Source of the DNA: a virus
Direction: 5' to 3' (one strand)
DNA length: 53,091 bases
IMG/VR virus record: IMGVR_UViG_3300002460_002974
Coordinates: 1 to 53,091 of that record
Part shown: positions 3,112-39,190 of the stretch, piece by piece
How positions within the stretch are numbered: the first letter of the stretch is position 1
How the letters are laid out: each line of letters opens with the position of its first letter
Made by a program: the position numbers and the translations under genes
Notes under the pieces: model-generated
What the model was told of the DNA's origin: nothing
What the model saw: the letters and a program-made list of their open reading frames with translations, nothing else
The model's database searches: none

Positions 3112-3875
3112 GGCTGATAACCCACGATAGTCACTTTAAGGCCCTTTGCCGTTCCGTCTCCTATCTGGTCTATATCAACAGTAATGCGGGCTCTGGCGGC
3201 TAAAGATGTGTCGGATATAACTGCTGGAGTTACAGCGGTAGCGCTGTCCGTCTCTGTGTTATCGATCGTGAGTTTGGTGGACAGGATCGAACTTCCGGAC
3301 TCATTGATATCAACGGTAAAAATAGAACCAGATGATTGCGCGGTTGTTAGTTCTGCGTAAACGGCCGTAACAGTCATGGCATAAGGCATGCGGAACGTGG
3401 TCTTGGCCACGCCAGCAGTGAGCGGTGTAGTCTCGTTGCTACAAGCAACAATAATCGGTGCCAGAACAATGACTGATCCGGTGCGTCCGTTTACCGTTGA
3501 CACTGCGCCTGCGGATGCGTCAGGAACAACCCAGGCCGAGCCAGTGTAAACGTAGGTTTTTGCTGCGCCGTTGGCGTCTGGCTCATCCAGCACCCTGACT
3601 GCGAATCCAGCTCTCGGCACCACGAATTGCCATGCATTCGTAGTGGTCAGCCAGTAGGCGAGCTGGCCCGTCTTGTCGGAGGCGGTGCCCCAGTTTCCGG
3701 AAGCAACGATGTATAGCGCCTCATCAGCTGGCGATCCCGGCGGCGCGGCCAAGTCCTTGTCGACCACTCCAGGCATGACCAGCTGATTGAGCTGGGCGAA
3801 CGTGGTGTTGGCCAGGGTCTGGTTCGCGGCCGCATTGGCAAGAAGCTCCAGCGCCAGCTTGGTGGTCGCCGTCAT
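3108..3875 (-). CDS. DUF2793-like tail fibre/tail tip-associated protein
   Basis: 255 residues. Residues about 45-120 carry the DUF2793-type pattern: DEALYIV...GNW, an aromatic-rich stretch, then P-R-A-G-F-A-V-R-V-L-D-E and a Y-V-Y-T-G-S-A-W end. The remaining half is a Thr/Ser/Ala-rich beta-type domain beginning at about residue 135 (SNETTPLTAG), like carbohydrate- or trimer-forming ends of tail fibres. It overlaps the tail-tip gene upstream and the propeller gene downstream by ATGA junctions, so the three are co-translated. Likely part of the adhesion apparatus; the exact role is not known. Confidence 0.7.
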   Translation of the reverse strand: MTATTKLALELLANAAANQTLANTTFAQLNQLVMPGVVDKDLAAPPGSPADEALYIVASGNWGTASDKTGQLAYWLTTTNAWQFVVPRAGFAVRVLDEPDANGAAKTYVYTGSAWVVPDASAGAVSTVNGRTGSVIVLAPIIVACSNETTPLTAGVAKTTFRMPYAMTVTAVYAELTTAQSSGSIFTVDINESGSSILSTKLTIDNTETDSATAVTPAVISDTSLAARARITVDIDQIGDGTAKGLKVTIVGYQP

Positions 3876-6800
3876 AGTGTTACCTCACGTGGATAGCCGC
3901 GGCCGACTGTGGCGCTGAGCTGGTAGATGCGGAAGGTGATCGATGCTTGAGGCGAGCCGAAGTCGGTCGACTGATCGGCCGCTGAGTAGGCGAACGTGGG
4001 CGTGCTGGCCGTGATGGTCCTGGCCACGACCGAGCCGTTCATCACGTCGATCTCGTAGCCCTCACTAGACTCTCCAACGGGAGCAGCTATACCGGTCGCC
4101 CACCAGCTGCTGCTGAGCCGACTGCGACGGGTGAAGGTGCCGGTGAAGTTGCTGGAGCCGTCGCGCACACCTTTGGCGTAGACCGGGCTCAGGCACTCCA
4201 GGTTGACGCCCTGGTAGGTGAACGGAACATCAGTGGCATCATCGACGGACGCGCCAGAGGTGACGCCGCGGTAGGTAGCCGGCACAGCAATGGATGCCAC
4301 GGCCATGCCGATAAATGCGTTATCTGGGTCATCCAGCAGAACGAAATAATCGTTGGCGGCATGAAGGCCTGTCGCCCACTCTGTGCCTTTTTCGCCGCGC
4401 ACGAATCCGCTCAACAGATAACTGCCGTTAGCCTGCAGATCGGCATTCTGGAATCTGACTATTTCCCACCGGCCATCCACGCCATAGGCTGCGTAGTTGG
4501 CACCCGCCAGCATCTGGTCGCGAGTGATGGATTCCGGAGCCCCGGAAATCATCCCGACAGTCAAAGTTCTCTGATCGATCAGCGTGCATGCGCTAACCGG
4601 CAGCGCGTCAACGGCATAGCCGATTGAGGGCATACCCGAATAGGCCTGCAAATCGATCCACGTTTGCCCGCCATCAGCTGATCTGACAGCCAGCGCTCCA
4701 GGCCAGCCAGCGCTATACCCAGTCATAACCCCCACAAAACCCGGGGCGTTCTGCAGGGTCTCGTCGATTACGGGGATATCCAGCGGCACGAACAGGGATT
4801 CACCAGCAAGGCCTATCGTCCCGGCCGGTGGCACTCCCTCAGATCCGCTTGCGGCTGGTGTGTAAAGCGCGGCTCGGTTCGGTAGCGCCTGGCACTCTAA
4901 TCGCCCGTCCTGGGTCTCGTTTGCCTCGGTCAGGCGGATCTCGTATGTAGCCGCCTGCGAGACCACGGTGACCACATCGCCCGCTTCCAGGTAGCGATAC
5001 GGGGGCGGCAGGGTGAATGACGCCGGAGTGCGCTCCAGCCATGGCATGAAGTTCAACATCTCCGCGATGCCGGCAGCTTCGTCGGCCGTCAGCACAAGCG
5101 CCAGATCGCGCTCAACCTTGTTGACGGCCTCGGTGTTTAACCGCTCGCTGAACTGCTCGCCAATGGCGTACTCGCGGACAGCATCAAGGTATTTGACGAC
5201 GGTCTTGGCCGGCAGTTGGGTATCCATTTCACGCGACTGCTGGAAGATATCGTCGGGCGTGTCGCCGGCGGTTGCGCCCAGGTCTTCCCATGGGATTGTC
5301 GCGACACTCGCCTGCCCGCGCGGCAGGAACTGTATTTTGTAACCATGCGCGCGCACATCAAGCGGGTAAGCCGTTTGCAGCGGCTCAAGTGCTGACCGAA
5401 TAGAGCCGCCCGAAACGCGATATCCCCGAACCATAGAATCGACCAACGTCACGTCGATATCTTCGGAAAAGAGCAGACCAGAAAAAGCGCACTCTTCTTG
5501 AATGATTTCTCCGAGCGGCTTCAGCTGTACGCTGGGATGTTGCAAATTAAACTTTCGGACTTTGAGTTTTTTCGGGGAAATAGTTTGTAGTGTTTCTATT
5601 ACCAAACCAGACTCAACATGAAAGCCTGCGCTATGGTAGGCGTCCTCCGAAAAGGGAAGACTGCCAAAAGACAAAACCTCACCAGTTGAAATGTTGAATG
5701 TGTAAATATTGCTTGTTAGCTGGCCGCCGTATATGTAAATGAGCCCATCATCAACCCATGCGCGACAATCGCTAACATCAGCAAGATCCATTACAACAGG
5801 CCACGACTCTGACTCGGTGAGCACGCCTGAAACGACTTCATATTTTTTAATTTCTGTTTCAAATATCGCGTAAGCCGCACCGCCAGTATCAAGTACAACC
5901 GCCCTGACTCCGGCCAACAAAACCGAATACTCCGGGCCGCCTAGTTGTTTATAGTAAAGCGATGTTGAAAAATCAGAATATCCAACGAACACATCGTTGC
6001 GGCGCTGGATATGCCCGTCGACTCCAGAAAAATTACCACCACCAGAAAACACTGCATCCTTGTCCCCTAGAAAGTCACCCTTAACATCGGTTTTGTAATT
6101 TGGCGGGGTGCCACTTGATAATGCGGGAAAAGCTCCGCGCGGAGTTATGGTGCCAATTCTTGCCTCATACAGATAAGCAGATACTGTAGGGGCTTCAGTC
6201 AGCGGAACAAAAAACTGAGCGAGCTGCGCATCGATATATGTGGCGCGTGCAGGGAAAGAAGTATTTGAGGTGTATTCGATATAGTCATACAGCGACTCTT
6301 CAATCAGCTGCACACCGGTCGACTGATCCTTAACAACCTCGACTTTAAACTGGGCCGCCTGCAGCGTATTGCTGTAGTCAGCCAGCTTGAAATCGTAGAA
6401 GGCAATGTAGGCCAGGCCGCGGTGAGCGCTGACATTGCCGACCCCATACTCCGCCTCATAGCGCGGGTCGGGCATCTGGTCATCGGTGCCCAGGTACAGC
6501 TTCCAGCCCTGGGCGGCCTGGTTGCTGGAGATGATCGTTTCGATGTCATCGCTGCCGGCGTTGTAGATGAGCTTGTCGCCGCACCACATGCGGCGGATGC
6601 CGGCGATGGGGCCTTCGCACAGAGCGAGCTGGAAGGTGGCGCTGTAGCTGTAGGTCTTGGTCGGCTCGGATGCACCGCCGCCACCCTTCCCGCCTGACTT
6701 CTTCTTGCGGACGGTCTCTTTGAGCTTGTTGTTCTCCAGCTGGATCACGTTGCCCATCACGGAGATGGTGCCGTAGAGCCGGGGAATATCTGCGCCGTAG

Positions 6801-35020: not shown

Positions 35021-35293
35021 ATGCAACCGACCGTTGAATCACTCCAGGGCGAACTGCTTGCCCTTCGCGGCTTTGTAGCCTCCCTGCTGGAGGTGATGCC
35101 GCTTGCTACGCGGGTCCAGTTCGCTGCGCGGCTGGACCGTAATCTGTTGCTGCTCAAGCCTTGCCAGGGCTCAGAACTCAGGGCTGGATTTGAGCGAGGT
35201 GTCTCGGCTCTTTTTGCTAAGCAGCGGATTCGGCCGGGTACAGATCAGGCCGTAGTTCGTGGCGAGGAACGCCGCTCGCAGCCTCGATCTTGA
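35021..35293 (+). CDS. Small helical protein on the strand opposite to cro/cII
   Basis: 90 residues (MQPTVESLQGELLALRGFVA), helical, with LEVMPLATRVQFAARL and GSELRAGFERGVSALFAKQ; this resembles small helical proteins common in Pseudomonas phages, but it is not a recognised family. It fills an otherwise empty interval between the cII-like and cro genes and overlaps cro by 77 bases on the other strand. AGGGA lies nine bases before the ATG. It may be a real gene facing cro, or noncoding. Confidence 0.5.
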   Translation: MQPTVESLQGELLALRGFVASLLEVMPLATRVQFAARLDRNLLLLKPCQGSELRAGFERGVSALFAKQRIRPGTDQAVVRGEERRSQPRS

Positions 35294-35426
35294 TAACCCT
35301 TTCGGCTGGCACGTTTCCGGTTGCGCACATGCGCTGTACCGCCTGAGGCGTGCACCCGAGAGCACGGGCCAGGGCTGATTGCCCGCCTGCCGCTTTTGCT
35401 GCTCGCTGAATGGCGCTGTCTTCCAT
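35217..35426 (-). CDS. cro: Cro-like repressor (YdaS-like helix-turn-helix)
   Basis: 69 residues. KAAGGQSALARALGCTPQAVQRMCATGNVPAERVIKIEAASGV is the helix-turn-helix typical of YdaS/Cro proteins of Pseudomonas and enteric phages. It is the first gene of the early right operon, starting 20 bases from the first operator, and faces the CI-like gene. GGAG lies eight bases before the ATG. It should bind the same operators as CI and favour lytic growth. Confidence 0.88.
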   Translation of the reverse strand: MEDSAIQRAAKAAGGQSALARALGCTPQAVQRMCATGNVPAERVIKIEAASGVPRHELRPDLYPAESAA

Positions 35427-35445: not shown

Positions 35446-35522
35446 CTACAATTTAAAGTTACAGCTCAAGCGGCAATTTTACAAGTGAGAATTGCAATGC
35501 TTGCTACAACGCATGGTTGTAT
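35446..35522. promoter_or_regulatory. Right operator region (three CI/Cro sites)
   Basis: Three 19-bp sites of the form YTACAA-N7-TTGYAR: 35446-35464 (CTACAA-N7-TTACAG, weaker second half), 35479-35497 (TTACAA-N7-TTGCAA) and 35504-35522 (CTACAA-N7-TTGTAT). They fill the space between cro and cI, as OR1-3 of lambda. A minus-strand promoter TTGAGC-17-GATAAC overlaps the first site and could be pR. Confidence 0.8.
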
Positions 35523-35532
35523 GTTTTCCGCC

Positions 35533-36216
35533 ATGGAAAAGATTGGTCGCCGCATCGCCGCGGCAAGAGAAAAGAAAGGGCTTAATCAGTCTGAGCTGGG
35601 CCGCCTCCTGGGCGTCTCACCTCAGTCCGTGCAGGCGTGGGAGTCTGATAAGAACGTGCCCCGGCCACGGCGGCTGTCGGAAATTGCTGCTGCCATAGAT
35701 CTGGATTTGGGCGACCTACTCAGAACAACACATCGCACGGGCGACGACTTCGTTCAGGCGCTCGGCGAAGTGGTCGGCGCGCACAGCAACTTGCGAGCAG
35801 TTGCGCAACCGCACAGGGATGCTAAGGGGTACCCATTGATCAGTTGGGTGGCGGCAGGGTGCTGGGAAGAATCTTGCGATAACTTCAACCCCGGCGACGC
35901 AGATGAGTGGCTTACTTCAAGCGCCAATGCGGGTGATTTTGGTTATTGGCTGGAGGTAAGCGGCCCGTCGATGGAGCCTACCTTTACAAGCGGAATGCGA
36001 ATTCTGGTAAAGCCGGAGGGCTTCGACCTTACGAGCGGCAAGTACTACGTTGCCAAATTACTGGATACCGGCGAGACCACTTTCAAGCAGTACCTGCGCG
36101 ACGGTGGCCATAGCTTCCTGCGGCCACTGAATCCTGCCTTCCCCGTTATTCCAGTAACTGACAACGTGGCGATCATCGGCTACGTCATTGACGCCAAGCT
36201 CCCGCCAATCTTCTAG
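35533..36216 (+). CDS. cI: CI-like repressor (LexA/S24 type)
   Basis: 227 residues. N-terminal helix-turn-helix (IGRRIAAAREKKGLNQSELGRLLGVSPQSVQAWESDK, residues 4-40). The C-terminal S24 domain has the cleavage site Ala108-Gly109 in SWVAAGCW, catalytic Ser146 in VSGPSMEPT and Lys185 in ETTFKQYL. RecA-stimulated self-cleavage would therefore induce the prophage. Start at 35533 is chosen at MEKIGRR; an ATG at 35521 lies within the third operator and would add four residues. Downstream genes on the same strand follow closely, so they are likely expressed in the lysogen. Confidence 0.93.
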   Translation: MEKIGRRIAAAREKKGLNQSELGRLLGVSPQSVQAWESDKNVPRPRRLSEIAAAIDLDLGDLLRTTHRTGDDFVQALGEVVGAHSNLRAVAQPHRDAKGYPLISWVAAGCWEESCDNFNPGDADEWLTSSANAGDFGYWLEVSGPSMEPTFTSGMRILVKPEGFDLTSGKYYVAKLLDTGETTFKQYLRDGGHSFLRPLNPAFPVIPVTDNVAIIGYVIDAKLPPIF

Positions 36217-36239: not shown

Positions 36240-36518
36240 ATGCGCACACTGATTGCTGCATCCCTACTGGCGCTGTTGGCTGGCTGTGCCGGCACCAACT
36301 TCAGCTACGACAGCGCGCGCCAGGTGAAGGTCGGCATGACTGAGGCCGAGGTCACCCGATTGATGGGGCCACCCTACTCCGTAGCATCGCGTGGCGACGA
36401 GCAGATGTGGGTGTGGAGTCGCGCCAACGGCTTCACCGGTGCAAGCCGTGCCGTATCCTTCAAGATGAAGAACGGCCAGGTCATCGAAGTGCCGCAGATC
36501 CCCGAGTCATTCAAATAG
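36240..36518 (+). CDS. BamE/SmpA-like lipoprotein
   Basis: 92 residues. Signal peptide with lipobox LLAGC (Cys near residue 16), then VKVGMTEAEVTRLMGPPYSV, WVWSRANGF and FKMKNGQVIEV, the SmpA/BamE-like fold of small envelope lipoproteins. GAGGT lies before the ATG. It is 23 bases downstream of cI and probably made in lysogens. Prophage lipoproteins can block receptors or change the envelope; that role here is inferred. Confidence 0.82.
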   Translation: MRTLIAASLLALLAGCAGTNFSYDSARQVKVGMTEAEVTRLMGPPYSVASRGDEQMWVWSRANGFTGASRAVSFKMKNGQVIEVPQIPESFK

Positions 36519-36538
36519 CCAGCACAAGGAGAAAATCC

Positions 36539-37180
36539 GTGCGCATATTAATTTATGTGGCCGCTGCGATCCTGCTGGCCGGCTGCGGTCATTCGCAGAT
36601 CGGTTACAGCCCAGTGGCACCGCAGGGCATCACAATTCAGCAGGCCGCATCTGTGGTCGAACAAGGCTTCTATGAGGACTACAGCCAGGAGAAGCCGCAG
36701 ACCGCCATGGTCACCGAGGAGTTTATCGGGCTATCAAATGGCACCGTTACACGCGGCCTTACCACAGGCACAGCACAGATGTTCGGCGGCGTAGCGTTAG
36801 GCCTGGGCTCCACCTTCTTGCGAACTGAAGAGATCAACCAGCGCATCTACTTCCGGGCACTGGGCGTGCCAATAGTCTCGAAGCGCAACGGGCGAGAGAA
36901 CCGTTACGCCGTGACCATCCGCCTGGCCGAGGGTGTGACAGCCCGCAACGTGTACTTTCGCTCCGAGCAGCGCGCCCGCGAGTTCGCCGACGCCCTGGTC
37001 TACCTGCGCGACTCTAGCGCCAGGGGCACACTTCGCGCTCAGCCAGCAGCAACCCCTTCTGGCATGCCAACAGAGAGCGCCTACAAGGAGCAACAAATCC
37101 GCGAACTTAGCCAGCAGAACCTGCCCTACGAGGAATACCAGAAGCGCTACCGGCAGATAATGGGGGGCCATGATGAGTGA
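36539..37180 (+). CDS. Second lipoprotein of the repressor operon
   Basis: 213 residues from a GTG start (MRILIYVAAAILLAGCGHSQ). The lipobox LLAGC has its Cys at residue 16. The mature part has TTGTAQMFGGVALGLGSTFL, RYAVTIRLAEGVTARNVYFRSEQRAREFADALVYLR, then a flexible linker and a helical end. No family recognised. AAGGAG is seven to eight bases upstream. It follows the BamE-like gene by 20 bases, so the two form one unit with cI. Confidence 0.75.
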   Translation: MRILIYVAAAILLAGCGHSQIGYSPVAPQGITIQQAASVVEQGFYEDYSQEKPQTAMVTEEFIGLSNGTVTRGLTTGTAQMFGGVALGLGSTFLRTEEINQRIYFRALGVPIVSKRNGRENRYAVTIRLAEGVTARNVYFRSEQRAREFADALVYLRDSSARGTLRAQPAATPSGMPTESAYKEQQIRELSQQNLPYEEYQKRYRQIMGGHDE

Positions 37181-37514
37181 CGAAGATCGGGCGGAAAGGG
37201 AGCCCTGGCGCGTAAGTATTGCCGAGTTCAAAGGGTTCTTGGGTCATGTTCAGCGGAGCACCTCATGTCCGGTCTGCCCGCACCGGGGCGACTGGACGAT
37301 CCATGTTGACGCTGAAGCCCCGAATTTTGGCCTTGACCCGAATCTACTGGTCTACGTGATACCAGGCTTCTCGCCAGACAACCTCGACAAGGCCAAATAT
37401 CGGCAAGGTCACTTTGCGATGGAGTGCCCAAACTGCGGCACGGTGCAGTTTGTTTCCTGCTTGTCCGTGGCTCGGCACCTTGGTCTATTCCCGGAGCAAA
37501 AAACTGATGGCTGA
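37170..37514 (+). CDS. Zinc-finger-like protein of the repressor operon
   Basis: 114 residues (MMSDEDRAEREPWRVSIAEF). Two Cys clusters, SCPVCPHRGDWTIHV and MECPNCGTVQFVSC, are about 50 residues apart and likely bind one zinc. It overlaps the lipoprotein gene by 11 bases. It may be a soluble partner of the membrane proteins around it. No known family. Confidence 0.7.
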   Translation: MMSDEDRAEREPWRVSIAEFKGFLGHVQRSTSCPVCPHRGDWTIHVDAEAPNFGLDPNLLVYVIPGFSPDNLDKAKYRQGHFAMECPNCGTVQFVSCLSVARHLGLFPEQKTDG

Positions 37515-37812
37515 ACACACTATGCCACTGGCGTGGCGTGACAAGGCGCTGCGTCAAGGTGATACTGGTAACGGTAATCCACCTGGAGGCGGCGACATGG
37601 AATCCAGAATCATCAACCTAGAGCATGCCATGACGGACGTTAAAGTGGCCCTCGGCAAGGTTGAGACTCGCCTAGAGCATATTGAGAGAACCATGCTTAC
37701 CAGGGGGCAGATGGCGGTATATGCCCTATTGGCCGGGATCGCAGTGTTTGGGGCTGGCTGGTGGGTAGTCCAGCAATATCTTGCGCCGCTTGTGGCTAAC
37801 CTACCGAAGTAG
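37507..37812 (+). CDS. Coiled-coil plus membrane anchor protein
   Basis: 101 residues (MAEHTMPLAWRDKALRQGDTGNG). A coiled coil (MESRIINLEHAMTDVKVALGKVETRLEHIERTML) precedes one membrane segment (AVYALLAGIAVFGAGWWVVQ) and ends QYLAPLVANLPK. The shape is like XhlA-type or superinfection-exclusion proteins; which applies is unknown. ATG overlaps the previous gene by eight bases. It is the last gene before two terminators. Confidence 0.75.
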   Translation: MAEHTMPLAWRDKALRQGDTGNGNPPGGGDMESRIINLEHAMTDVKVALGKVETRLEHIERTMLTRGQMAVYALLAGIAVFGAGWWVVQQYLAPLVANLPK

Positions 37813-37880
37813 CTGGCTTATCGAGCTCTAAGTCCTCCACCGGAGGCCGGCGCATTCCGGTTTAACCGAAGCGCTGTCTG

Positions 37881-37906
37881 AGCCCCGCCACCGAGCGGGG
37901 CTTTTT
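37881..37906 (+). terminator. First terminator after the repressor operon
   Basis: AGCCCCGC-CACCGA-GCGGGGCT followed by TTTT, a strong 8-bp stem. Confidence 0.9.
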
Positions 37907-37943
37907 GTTTCCGCCTCCTGAAATAGCATCCGACTGAAACCAG

Positions 37944-37966
37944 GCCCGCCGTGCGCGGGCTTTTTT
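37944..37966 (+). terminator. Second terminator after the repressor operon
   Basis: GCCCGC-CGTGC-GCGGGC followed by TTTTTT. Together with the first, it isolates lysogenic transcription from the left operon. Confidence 0.88.
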
Positions 37967-38007: not shown

Positions 38008-38046
38008 TTACAATTACCGCTTGCAGACTACAATTTTCAGTTGTAG
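38008..38046. promoter_or_regulatory. Left operator region (two CI/Cro sites)
   Basis: 38008-38026 reads TTACAA-N7-TTGCAG and 38028-38046 CTACAA-N7-TTGTAG; the second is a perfect inverted repeat. Centres are 20 bp apart, so the two sites face the same side of the helix. They match the sites around cI. Confidence 0.82.
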
Positions 38047-38404: not shown

Positions 38405-38638
38405 TCATTTTCGTCGGTTAGAACCAGGCGCGCCGCCTGAGACGGGGTGTCGAGGTTTCCGGTAGCCAGATATGGAATGCAGCTCTTCGCGTTTGATGCG
38501 CTGTTCCATGGAGTGGATTGCGAGAGCTAGACCAGCGCCTTTGCCGGGCGGCATTTCATCCAGGTCGCGCTGCATTTTGCGCAAGACACGCTTCAAGCGC
38601 TCGATCATCTGAGCGTGAGTCTCTGGCTTGCTGCTCAT
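38405..38638 (-). CDS. Hypothetical coiled-coil protein (minus-strand pair, second)
   Basis: 77 residues (MSSKPETHAQMIERLKRVLR), basic helix followed by AGLALAIHSMEQRIKREELH and a polar tail. ATG overlaps the stop of the zinc-cluster gene. It reads against the surrounding left operon. Function unknown. Confidence 0.6.
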   Translation of the reverse strand: MSSKPETHAQMIERLKRVLRKMQRDLDEMPPGKGAGLALAIHSMEQRIKREELHSISGYRKPRHPVSGGAPGSNRRK

Positions 38639-39015
38639 TTGCGCTTTCCTAGCCCGGGTGATCCACCCTTGAAGACTGTTACCTCAGAAAAGTGGTCATG
38701 CGCCCTGGGATGAATTCCCAGGTCGATATCGCGAGAGCGATCCTTACATTTCTGGCATAGGACGGGGTTTAGAAAGAACTCGGGGTCAGCCCTGGTTGGC
38801 TTTCTGCATTCGCTGCAAGGCCTTGTCTTCATGGACTCATCAAACGCCTCAGAGGCAGCCCTTGCCTTTGCAGTCGCAATAAGGCGGCTTTTAGCGTTCT
38901 TTGCCCTCTCCTCTTTTCGCCGCTTTCTGAGAGCTGCTTTATCGGCCTTTTCGGCCGCTTTATTGATTGGGATGAAAGCTATTCGTAGCTGCTCAGTTAT
39001 CCAGTCTACCGACAT
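38635..39015 (-). CDS. Basic zinc-cluster protein (minus-strand pair, first)
   Basis: 126 residues (MSVDWITEQLRIAFIPINKA). A long basic helix (KAALRKRRKEERAKNAKSRLIATAKARA) is followed by PCSECRKPTRA and VLCQKCKDRSRD, two C-x-x-C pairs for one zinc. ATG at 39015 has AGGAAGG upstream. With the next gene it forms a divergent minus-strand unit inside the plus-strand left operon. Possibly a regulator; no family recognised. Confidence 0.65.
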   Translation of the reverse strand: MSVDWITEQLRIAFIPINKAAEKADKAALRKRRKEERAKNAKSRLIATAKARAASEAFDESMKTRPCSECRKPTRADPEFFLNPVLCQKCKDRSRDIDLGIHPRAHDHFSEVTVFKGGSPGLGKRK

Positions 39016-39190
39016 AGACAGGCCCTTCCTTTGGACATCCATCGCCCGATCATACGCCTGCCAATCGCCAGCAGCGAACGGTGGGATATCGACGGTGAGA
39101 GTCGAGCGCAGGGATGGCCTGGGAGAACGGAAATTTTCACTGATGCGCCTCTAGCTGGGGCGCATTGGAAAACGACCGGAGGTAATGAAC

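Follow-up and report, generated by a model that had tools for sequence, protein, structure and literature searches.

A predicted coiled-coil membrane anchor with a conserved second start and interchangeable partners in the immunity region of a Pseudomonas-type prophage

The DNA analysed here (the window; 53,091 nucleotides, part of a 55,797-base virus record) belongs to a temperate Pseudomonas-type prophage, in which the cI repressor gene is followed by four open reading frames, g1 to g4, on the same strand; 23 bases separate cI from g1 and 20 bases g1 from g2, and the last two junctions are overlaps. Our main proposal concerns the last two. We read g3-g4-type pairs, with moderate confidence, as partner-docking membrane modules of cI operons that most likely act in the lysogen as exclusion or abortive defence systems. 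In related loci the g4-like anchor is found behind three classes of partner and contains a conserved internal start codon, and its short N-terminal extension follows the partner class while the anchor itself swaps between classes. Both this behaviour of the extension and the conserved second start in g4 relatives appear to be undescribed.

The region is organised as follows (window coordinates).

35217..35426, minus strand: cro-like HTH gene, divergent from cI (PF15943 YdaS_toxin, E 1.7e-17; phrog_35, 1.1e-18)
35446-35464, 35479-35497 and 35504-35522: right operator-like cluster, three copies of a 19 bp palindrome
35533..36216, plus strand: cI repressor, HTH_3 and Peptidase_S24 domains (PF00717, 8.2e-23; PF01381, 1.4e-13; phrog_4, 1.3e-45)
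36240..36518, plus strand: g1, 92-residue lipoprotein, BamE/OsmE-like (phrog_3135, 2.8e-15)
36539..37180, plus strand: g2, 213-residue lipoprotein with a GTG start, N-terminal beta domain and helical-hairpin C-terminal tail
37170..37514, plus strand: g3, 114-residue zinc-ribbon-type protein, class A partner; its start overlaps the g2 stop
37507..37812, plus strand: g4 long form, 101 residues, N-terminal extension, Gly/Pro linker, coiled coil and C-terminal TM helix; overlaps the g3 stop
37516..37566, plus strand: putative docking peptide of g4, residues 4-20, within the extension that follows the partner class
37585..37589, plus strand: Shine-Dalgarno sequence GGAGG of the g4 internal start
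37597..37812, plus strand: g4 short form, 71 residues, from the internal start codon; coiled coil and TM helix only
37880..37903, plus strand: intrinsic terminator 1, 9 pairs, 7 of them GC
37942..37962, plus strand: intrinsic terminator 2, 8 pairs, 6 of them GC
38008-38026 and 38028-38046: left operator-like cluster, two copies of the right-cluster palindrome

An alternative in-frame ATG for cI is possible farther upstream, at 35521. The original prediction had described a same-strand run of four genes directly 3' of cI, expressed with the repressor and closed by double terminators. All four frames are real and both terminators are good, although these lie beyond the interval 36240-37812 to which the run had been assigned. 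Its placement of the genes was likewise right: the space from cI to a second cluster of operators is taken up by them. Using a palindrome seed chosen by eye within the window (38028-38046) and scoring sites at up to 6 mismatches, we found three sites in the cro-cI gap, where dinucleotide shuffles gave a mean of 0.04 and none of 2000 reached three; across the 53 kb there are 11 sites in total, six of them elsewhere than the two clusters. Because the palindrome recurs on both sides, the unit formed by cI, g1 to g4 and the terminators is bracketed by two operator clusters. The cI operon would thus fill the immunity region in the order right operators, cI, cargo, terminators, left operators. The pattern is weak outside the window, since in a crude comparison of 29 loci, the window among them, only 10 scored an own operator distance no greater than 3; a 17-mer present, with at most 2 mismatches, both around the cI start and in the sequence that follows g4 was seen in 8 of the 29 loci and in 22 of 812 mismatched locus pairs. 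Past the left operators lie two minus-strand ORFs (38405-39042), neither with a clear Pfam or PHROG family, the smaller of which (38405-38638) shares 87% identity with an ORF of locus L008.

In lambda, rexAB follows cI on the cI strand ahead of the left operators, is closed by a terminator and encodes one soluble and one membrane protein. Genes g1 to g4 occupy this place of a lambda-type immunity region, with the same strand and the same terminator closure, and the slot is a classic home of exclusion genes. Known examples are few: a published account counts five RexAB-like systems, places rexAB downstream of CI in lambda and reports experiments in which the RexAB-type pair that P. putida prophage P1 carries behind its CI-like repressor protects against phages (PMC12894663). 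Because the slot is the rexAB place of both lambda and P1, it was reasonable to expect g1 to g4 to be expressed with the repressor, probably by co-transcription with cI, and to suspect exclusion.

The product of g4 matches phrog_6136 (E 7.5e-32, residues 19-99). The statement that g2, g3 and g4 resemble no family therefore fails for g4; g3 matches phrog_4293 weakly and g2 matches phrog_29962 by its tail only. The description of g4 as a coiled-coil membrane protein is borne out by a coiled coil and a single C-terminal hydrophobic helix (residues 70-88 of 101, mean Kyte-Doolittle 1.9). A C-terminal TM-like segment is present in 40 of 41 anchors, and several kinds of TM tail recur across partner classes. 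Profiles built from g4 retrieved 147 g4-like ORFs in 146 of 153 loci, with a copy of the window stretch (L001) left out; the start, Shine-Dalgarno and docking statistics given below draw on 76 partnered ORFs, reduced to 42 with distinct extensions. Of the 147 ORFs, 70 are without a recognised partner, many of them solo chromosomal relatives, and among the 398 genomes searched (genus of G001) phrog_6136 matches occur in 112, again with many solo, chromosomal and partnerless copies. The loci L089-L153 hold such chromosomal-looking relatives of the MEPRVxELETHLKYIRRDM type, partnerless and mostly with ATG at the internal position. One locus (L039) carries tandem g4-like ORFs, the second without an extension.

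Absent from the original prediction is a second in-frame start of g4, an ATG at 37597 that follows GGAGG at a distance of 7 bases. A start codon is present at this position, three residues before a conserved arginine, in all 42 partnered loci (22 ATG, 14 TTG, 6 GTG; in five rows it was found by pattern, having been missed by the initial search). Leucine is always encoded here by TTG, which accounts for 46 of 371 leucine codons in the core, and valine always by GTG, which accounts for 67 of 302 core valine codons. Shine-Dalgarno runs of at least 5 nt precede the internal start in 32 of the 42 loci, compared with 6.4% of control codons. The 71 remaining g4-like ORFs, which entered the start-codon count only, have 57 ATG, 4 TTG and 3 CTG at the position in 66 distinct sequences, with no such codon in two. 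Because the second start is conserved and has a strong Shine-Dalgarno sequence, both a long and a short form of g4 are predicted. It offers a concrete and cheaply testable prediction for genes to which databases assign no function.

The long frame of g4 also looks real from its sequence conservation. In all 42 non-redundant partnered loci it extends without interruption upstream past the stop codon of the partner, and differences between extensions (44 pairs) number 263, 213 and 448 at the first, second and third codon positions, the third being the most variable. We do not take this third-position excess as proof of translation, since the selection of alignable pairs biases it; in a control in which the DNA was aligned in the other two frames, the most variable base was unchanged.

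Immediately upstream of the g4-like ORF, the 42 non-redundant loci carry a class A zinc protein in 19 cases, a class B beta-type protein in 11 and a class C small helical protein in 12, the labels 'beta' and 'helical' having been given by eye from sequence. Partner classes and cI-like genes were called with profiles built and iterated in this analysis rather than with curated families. The upstream sequence contains a cI-like gene in 34 of the 42 loci and reaches back only about 1.5 kb in the other eight; 13 of the 34 have extra cargo between cI and the partner. Sources of the partnered loci are Pseudomonas phages and genomes, one genome each of Stutzerimonas and Shewanella, and viral contigs; the module stands beside cI in many Pseudomonas prophages. 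In locus L019 a class A zinc protein directly follows cI and a class B partner precedes the anchor. Class B partners, which by eye we had presumed to be DUF3467-like, were not retained under that name: at E 0.1, two of three proteins had no Pfam family and the third matched an unrelated one weakly. Two partners precede proteins that are not g4-like: a class A partner at L180:291-650 has no g4-like ORF after it, and the protein downstream of a class B partner at L188:1474-1815 is a coiled coil of another family that contains a hydrophobic stretch. Partners may for this reason plug into other anchors as well.

The class A partner of the window, g3, had been called a zinc-finger protein, and both CxxC pairs are indeed present (C33, C36 and C86, C89); the four cysteines and G90 are invariant in alignments of 8 and 9 g3 relatives. 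Its match to phrog_4293 is weak (E 0.0022), with the relatives in L009 and L060 reaching 4.7e-8 and 1.9e-7. An AlphaFold2 model from 9 sequences (pLDDT 61.6, pTM 0.52) gave weak zinc-ribbon-type matches, none of them at E 0.001 or better in the fold searches and the best VIA-align Z being 2.9; a g3 profile against PDB sequences gave weak, mostly zinc-binding matches, the best at 0.013. Because all these matches are weak, no fold is claimed for g3 past 'zinc-ribbon-type'. Viral contigs scanned with g3 alone yielded no relative. The g3 sequence has neither a detectable signal peptide nor a lipobox.

The link between partner and anchor would lie in the N-terminal extension of the long form. Only residues encoded after the partner stop were compared, in sets of 38, 29 and 24 sequences at three redundancy cut-offs, the 38 of the first docking test being what was left once identical and near-identical post-stop extensions had been removed. 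In this comparison extensions resemble one another more inside a partner class than across classes (0 of 20,000 permutations at each cut-off), and the anchor has no partner-class association (7573, 15371 and 16786 of 20,000 permutations), figures that are not strict probabilities because the loci are related by descent. The nearest neighbour is of the same class for 27 of 38 extensions and for 17 of 38 anchors. By eye, the extensions carry motifs of the approximate form VVxxRWxxK in class A, IxDSSGxVxxGHPSW in class B and VRLLQxQY in class C. A locus located via its class B partner and not via its anchor (L192) bears the class B peptide (0 of 2000 shuffles), whereas the extension in L188 gave no significant match to that peptide (1112 of 2000 shuffles).

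Some class association is given by linkage alone, because the peptide adjoins the partner gene. Recombination in the linker could thus carry the extension along with the partner gene, with only the short g4 being functional. The extension abuts the partner gene, the conserved linker DNA is a natural exchange point and the Shine-Dalgarno sequence is better placed for the short start. We nevertheless consider such hitch-hiking unlikely: in none of the 42 partnered loci is the long frame interrupted before it passes the partner stop, it has the third-position excess described above, and the class-specific motifs are kept between diverged members.

A membrane tether is the simplest model for the pair. 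The soluble, zinc-type g3 would bind the short N-terminal peptide of long g4 and thereby be tethered to the inner membrane via the g4 coiled coil and C-terminal TM helix. The internal start would make anchor subunits devoid of the peptide, and the proportion of these to partner-binding subunits would dilute or tune the tether. In different phages the anchor is combined with three kinds of soluble partner, every one of them with a peptide of its own; the variable partner would act as sensor or as determinant of specificity, and the anchor would supply the membrane component. Position and architecture make exclusion or abortive defence in the lysogen the most likely, and exclusion our leading, function for the pair. 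More tentatively, we suggest that dual-start, tail-anchored coiled coils with interchangeable soluble partners, each recruited to the membrane by a class-specific peptide, may constitute a widespread, undescribed immunity-region class that confers exchangeable exclusion specificities. A constant membrane part with swappable soluble parts would give natural chimeras for testing exclusion specificity.

Small membrane proteins with a dual start are typical of holin/antiholin genes, and the same two-component membrane module might instead serve the prophage itself, as a membrane-held regulator, in antiholin-like damping of lysis or in sensing the membrane state for induction. Besides the dual start, expression from the cI operon would suit lysis control, and g4 is weakly similar to the hemolysin-annotated phrog_1193 (E 0.11). 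The module is located in the immunity region, away from the lysis genes, however, and has solo chromosomal relatives; three unrelated partners on one anchor would also fit specificity better than fixed regulation. We therefore regard a service role of this kind as rather improbable.

Comparison with RexAB places the proposed exclusion function in context. As predicted for g3-g4, lambda RexAB combines a soluble with a membrane protein; g4 differs in that its 101 residues contain one TM helix instead of the four of RexB, and it has no RexB-type match. Searches of Pfam, NCBIfam, PHROGs and PDB sequences gave no match between g3 and RexA, the g3 fold model itself being weak. We know of no Rex system with three alternative partner types and a dual start. 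In the P1 report, RexABpp (PP_5643-5644) likewise has a CI-like repressor gene upstream of it in a Pseudomonas prophage, with two other genes in between, and pairs a soluble with a membrane protein: RexApp is a DNA-binding RexA relative (37.5 kDa when His-tagged) and RexBpp has four predicted TM helices, whereas g3 is a 114-residue protein with two CxxC pairs and g4 a single-TM tail anchor (PMC12894663). The two genes between cI and rexAB in P1, PP_3897 and PP_3898 of the same operon, did not sensitise the host to the tested phages when deleted singly (PMC12894663). Exclusion by g3-g4 is thus a prediction: g4 is not RexB, g3 has no detectable RexA likeness, and these single deletions, should the two genes be relatives of g3 and g4, were silent. 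Close to the tether model is the mycobacteriophage Butters pair Gp30/Gp31, in which a membrane protein is thought to hold a soluble partner; according to the same source the pair differs in that Gp30 is toxic and is said to be sequestered by Gp31 (PMC12894663). None of the four proteins matched a defence family in PADLOC-DB 2.0.0 at E up to 1.

The two genes between cI and g3 encode independent lipoproteins. Both g1 and g2 have signal peptides, each with the lipobox LAGC, in keeping with the lipoproteins that had been predicted. The BamE likeness of g1 is seen in its similarity to PF04355, although at 22.6 bits this lies just under the Pfam gathering cut-off of 23.2. The family match of g2 (phrog_29962, 6.7e-6) is limited to a C-terminal tail of about 35 residues (about 37079-37177) that is common to otherwise different lipoproteins, two of which are encoded immediately or shortly behind a cI-like gene (L005, L006); the remaining g2 relatives have no such tail. 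Five tails of this type gave no Pfam SHOCT match at E up to 10. An AlphaFold2 model of g2 from 2 sequences (pLDDT 65.7, pTM 0.56) comprises a beta domain and a C-terminal helical hairpin. Fold searches with it produced no hit with an E of 0.001 or below; the weak matches repeatedly include PH-like domains and 'Short C-terminal domain' proteins, the latter three times in the top nine from BFVD, which is a lead only. The envelope destination predicted for all products therefore holds for g1, g2 and g4, which look envelope-bound, and not for g3: three products rather than four are expected there because the g3 sequence has neither signal peptide nor lipobox.

The distribution of relatives speaks against a single four-gene module. 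A g2 relative of 69% identity directly follows another cI in L154/L166, with g1, g3 and g4 absent. Among the 12 g2-relative loci L154-L165, a cI-like ORF was detected in two, a strong one in L154 and a weak one in L164, and in none of the other 10. For g1, a cI-like ORF is present in four of eight loci with a relative (L178, L179, L180, L182), and in two of these, L178 and L182, the g1 relative comes immediately after it and g3-g4 are absent. The g3-g4 pair has a swapping pattern of its own, and the four window genes occur together in none of the relative loci examined. That all four act jointly as one envelope exclusion system would agree with their common strand, tight spacing and shared terminator pair, but relatives of g1 and g2 follow other cI genes on their own, and a lipoprotein, recognised by pattern, occurs in only 4 of 34 cI-bearing loci, most g3-g4-type pairs having none before them; we consider a joint system very improbable. 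Instead, g1 and g2 may be separately acquired lipoproteins for lysogenic conversion, next to g3-g4 as a module in its own right. After the cI and the g2 relative, L166:4613-6303 carries a pair that by eye resembles an XRE/ImmA-type protein and a short PIN-like protein.

PHROGs lists the g4 family (phrog_6136), the class A zinc partners (phrog_4293) and the class B partners (phrog_28590) separately and with function unknown, and the displayed records contain neither the pairing, nor the swapping, nor the internal start. A search of the PMC literature, a scope that leaves out most subscription papers, returned no paper on a g3-g4-type pair. Exclusion genes beside a repressor, one of them co-transcribed, are described for the P. 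aeruginosa B3-like phages (Fc02 olg1 and gene 10); in the excerpted account these lie upstream of repc, their ORFs overlap in different frames and a zinc/TM pair is not described (PMC9936078). When the DNA of the whole cassette was compared with named phages, only g4 stretches matched, in 4 of 50,697 records, all from Pseudomonas phages. Protein searches of the same 50,697 records recovered no relative of g1 or g2; for g3 they gave two records, both from a single phage (27% identity), and for g4 four. Other possible cargo of immunity regions was also seen: the cI operon of Pseudomonas phage phi1 (L024) carries at 3808-4458 a BRCT-type protein annotated as NAD-dependent DNA ligase, and L039 contains at 3497-4393 an ORF that by eye is exonuclease-like.
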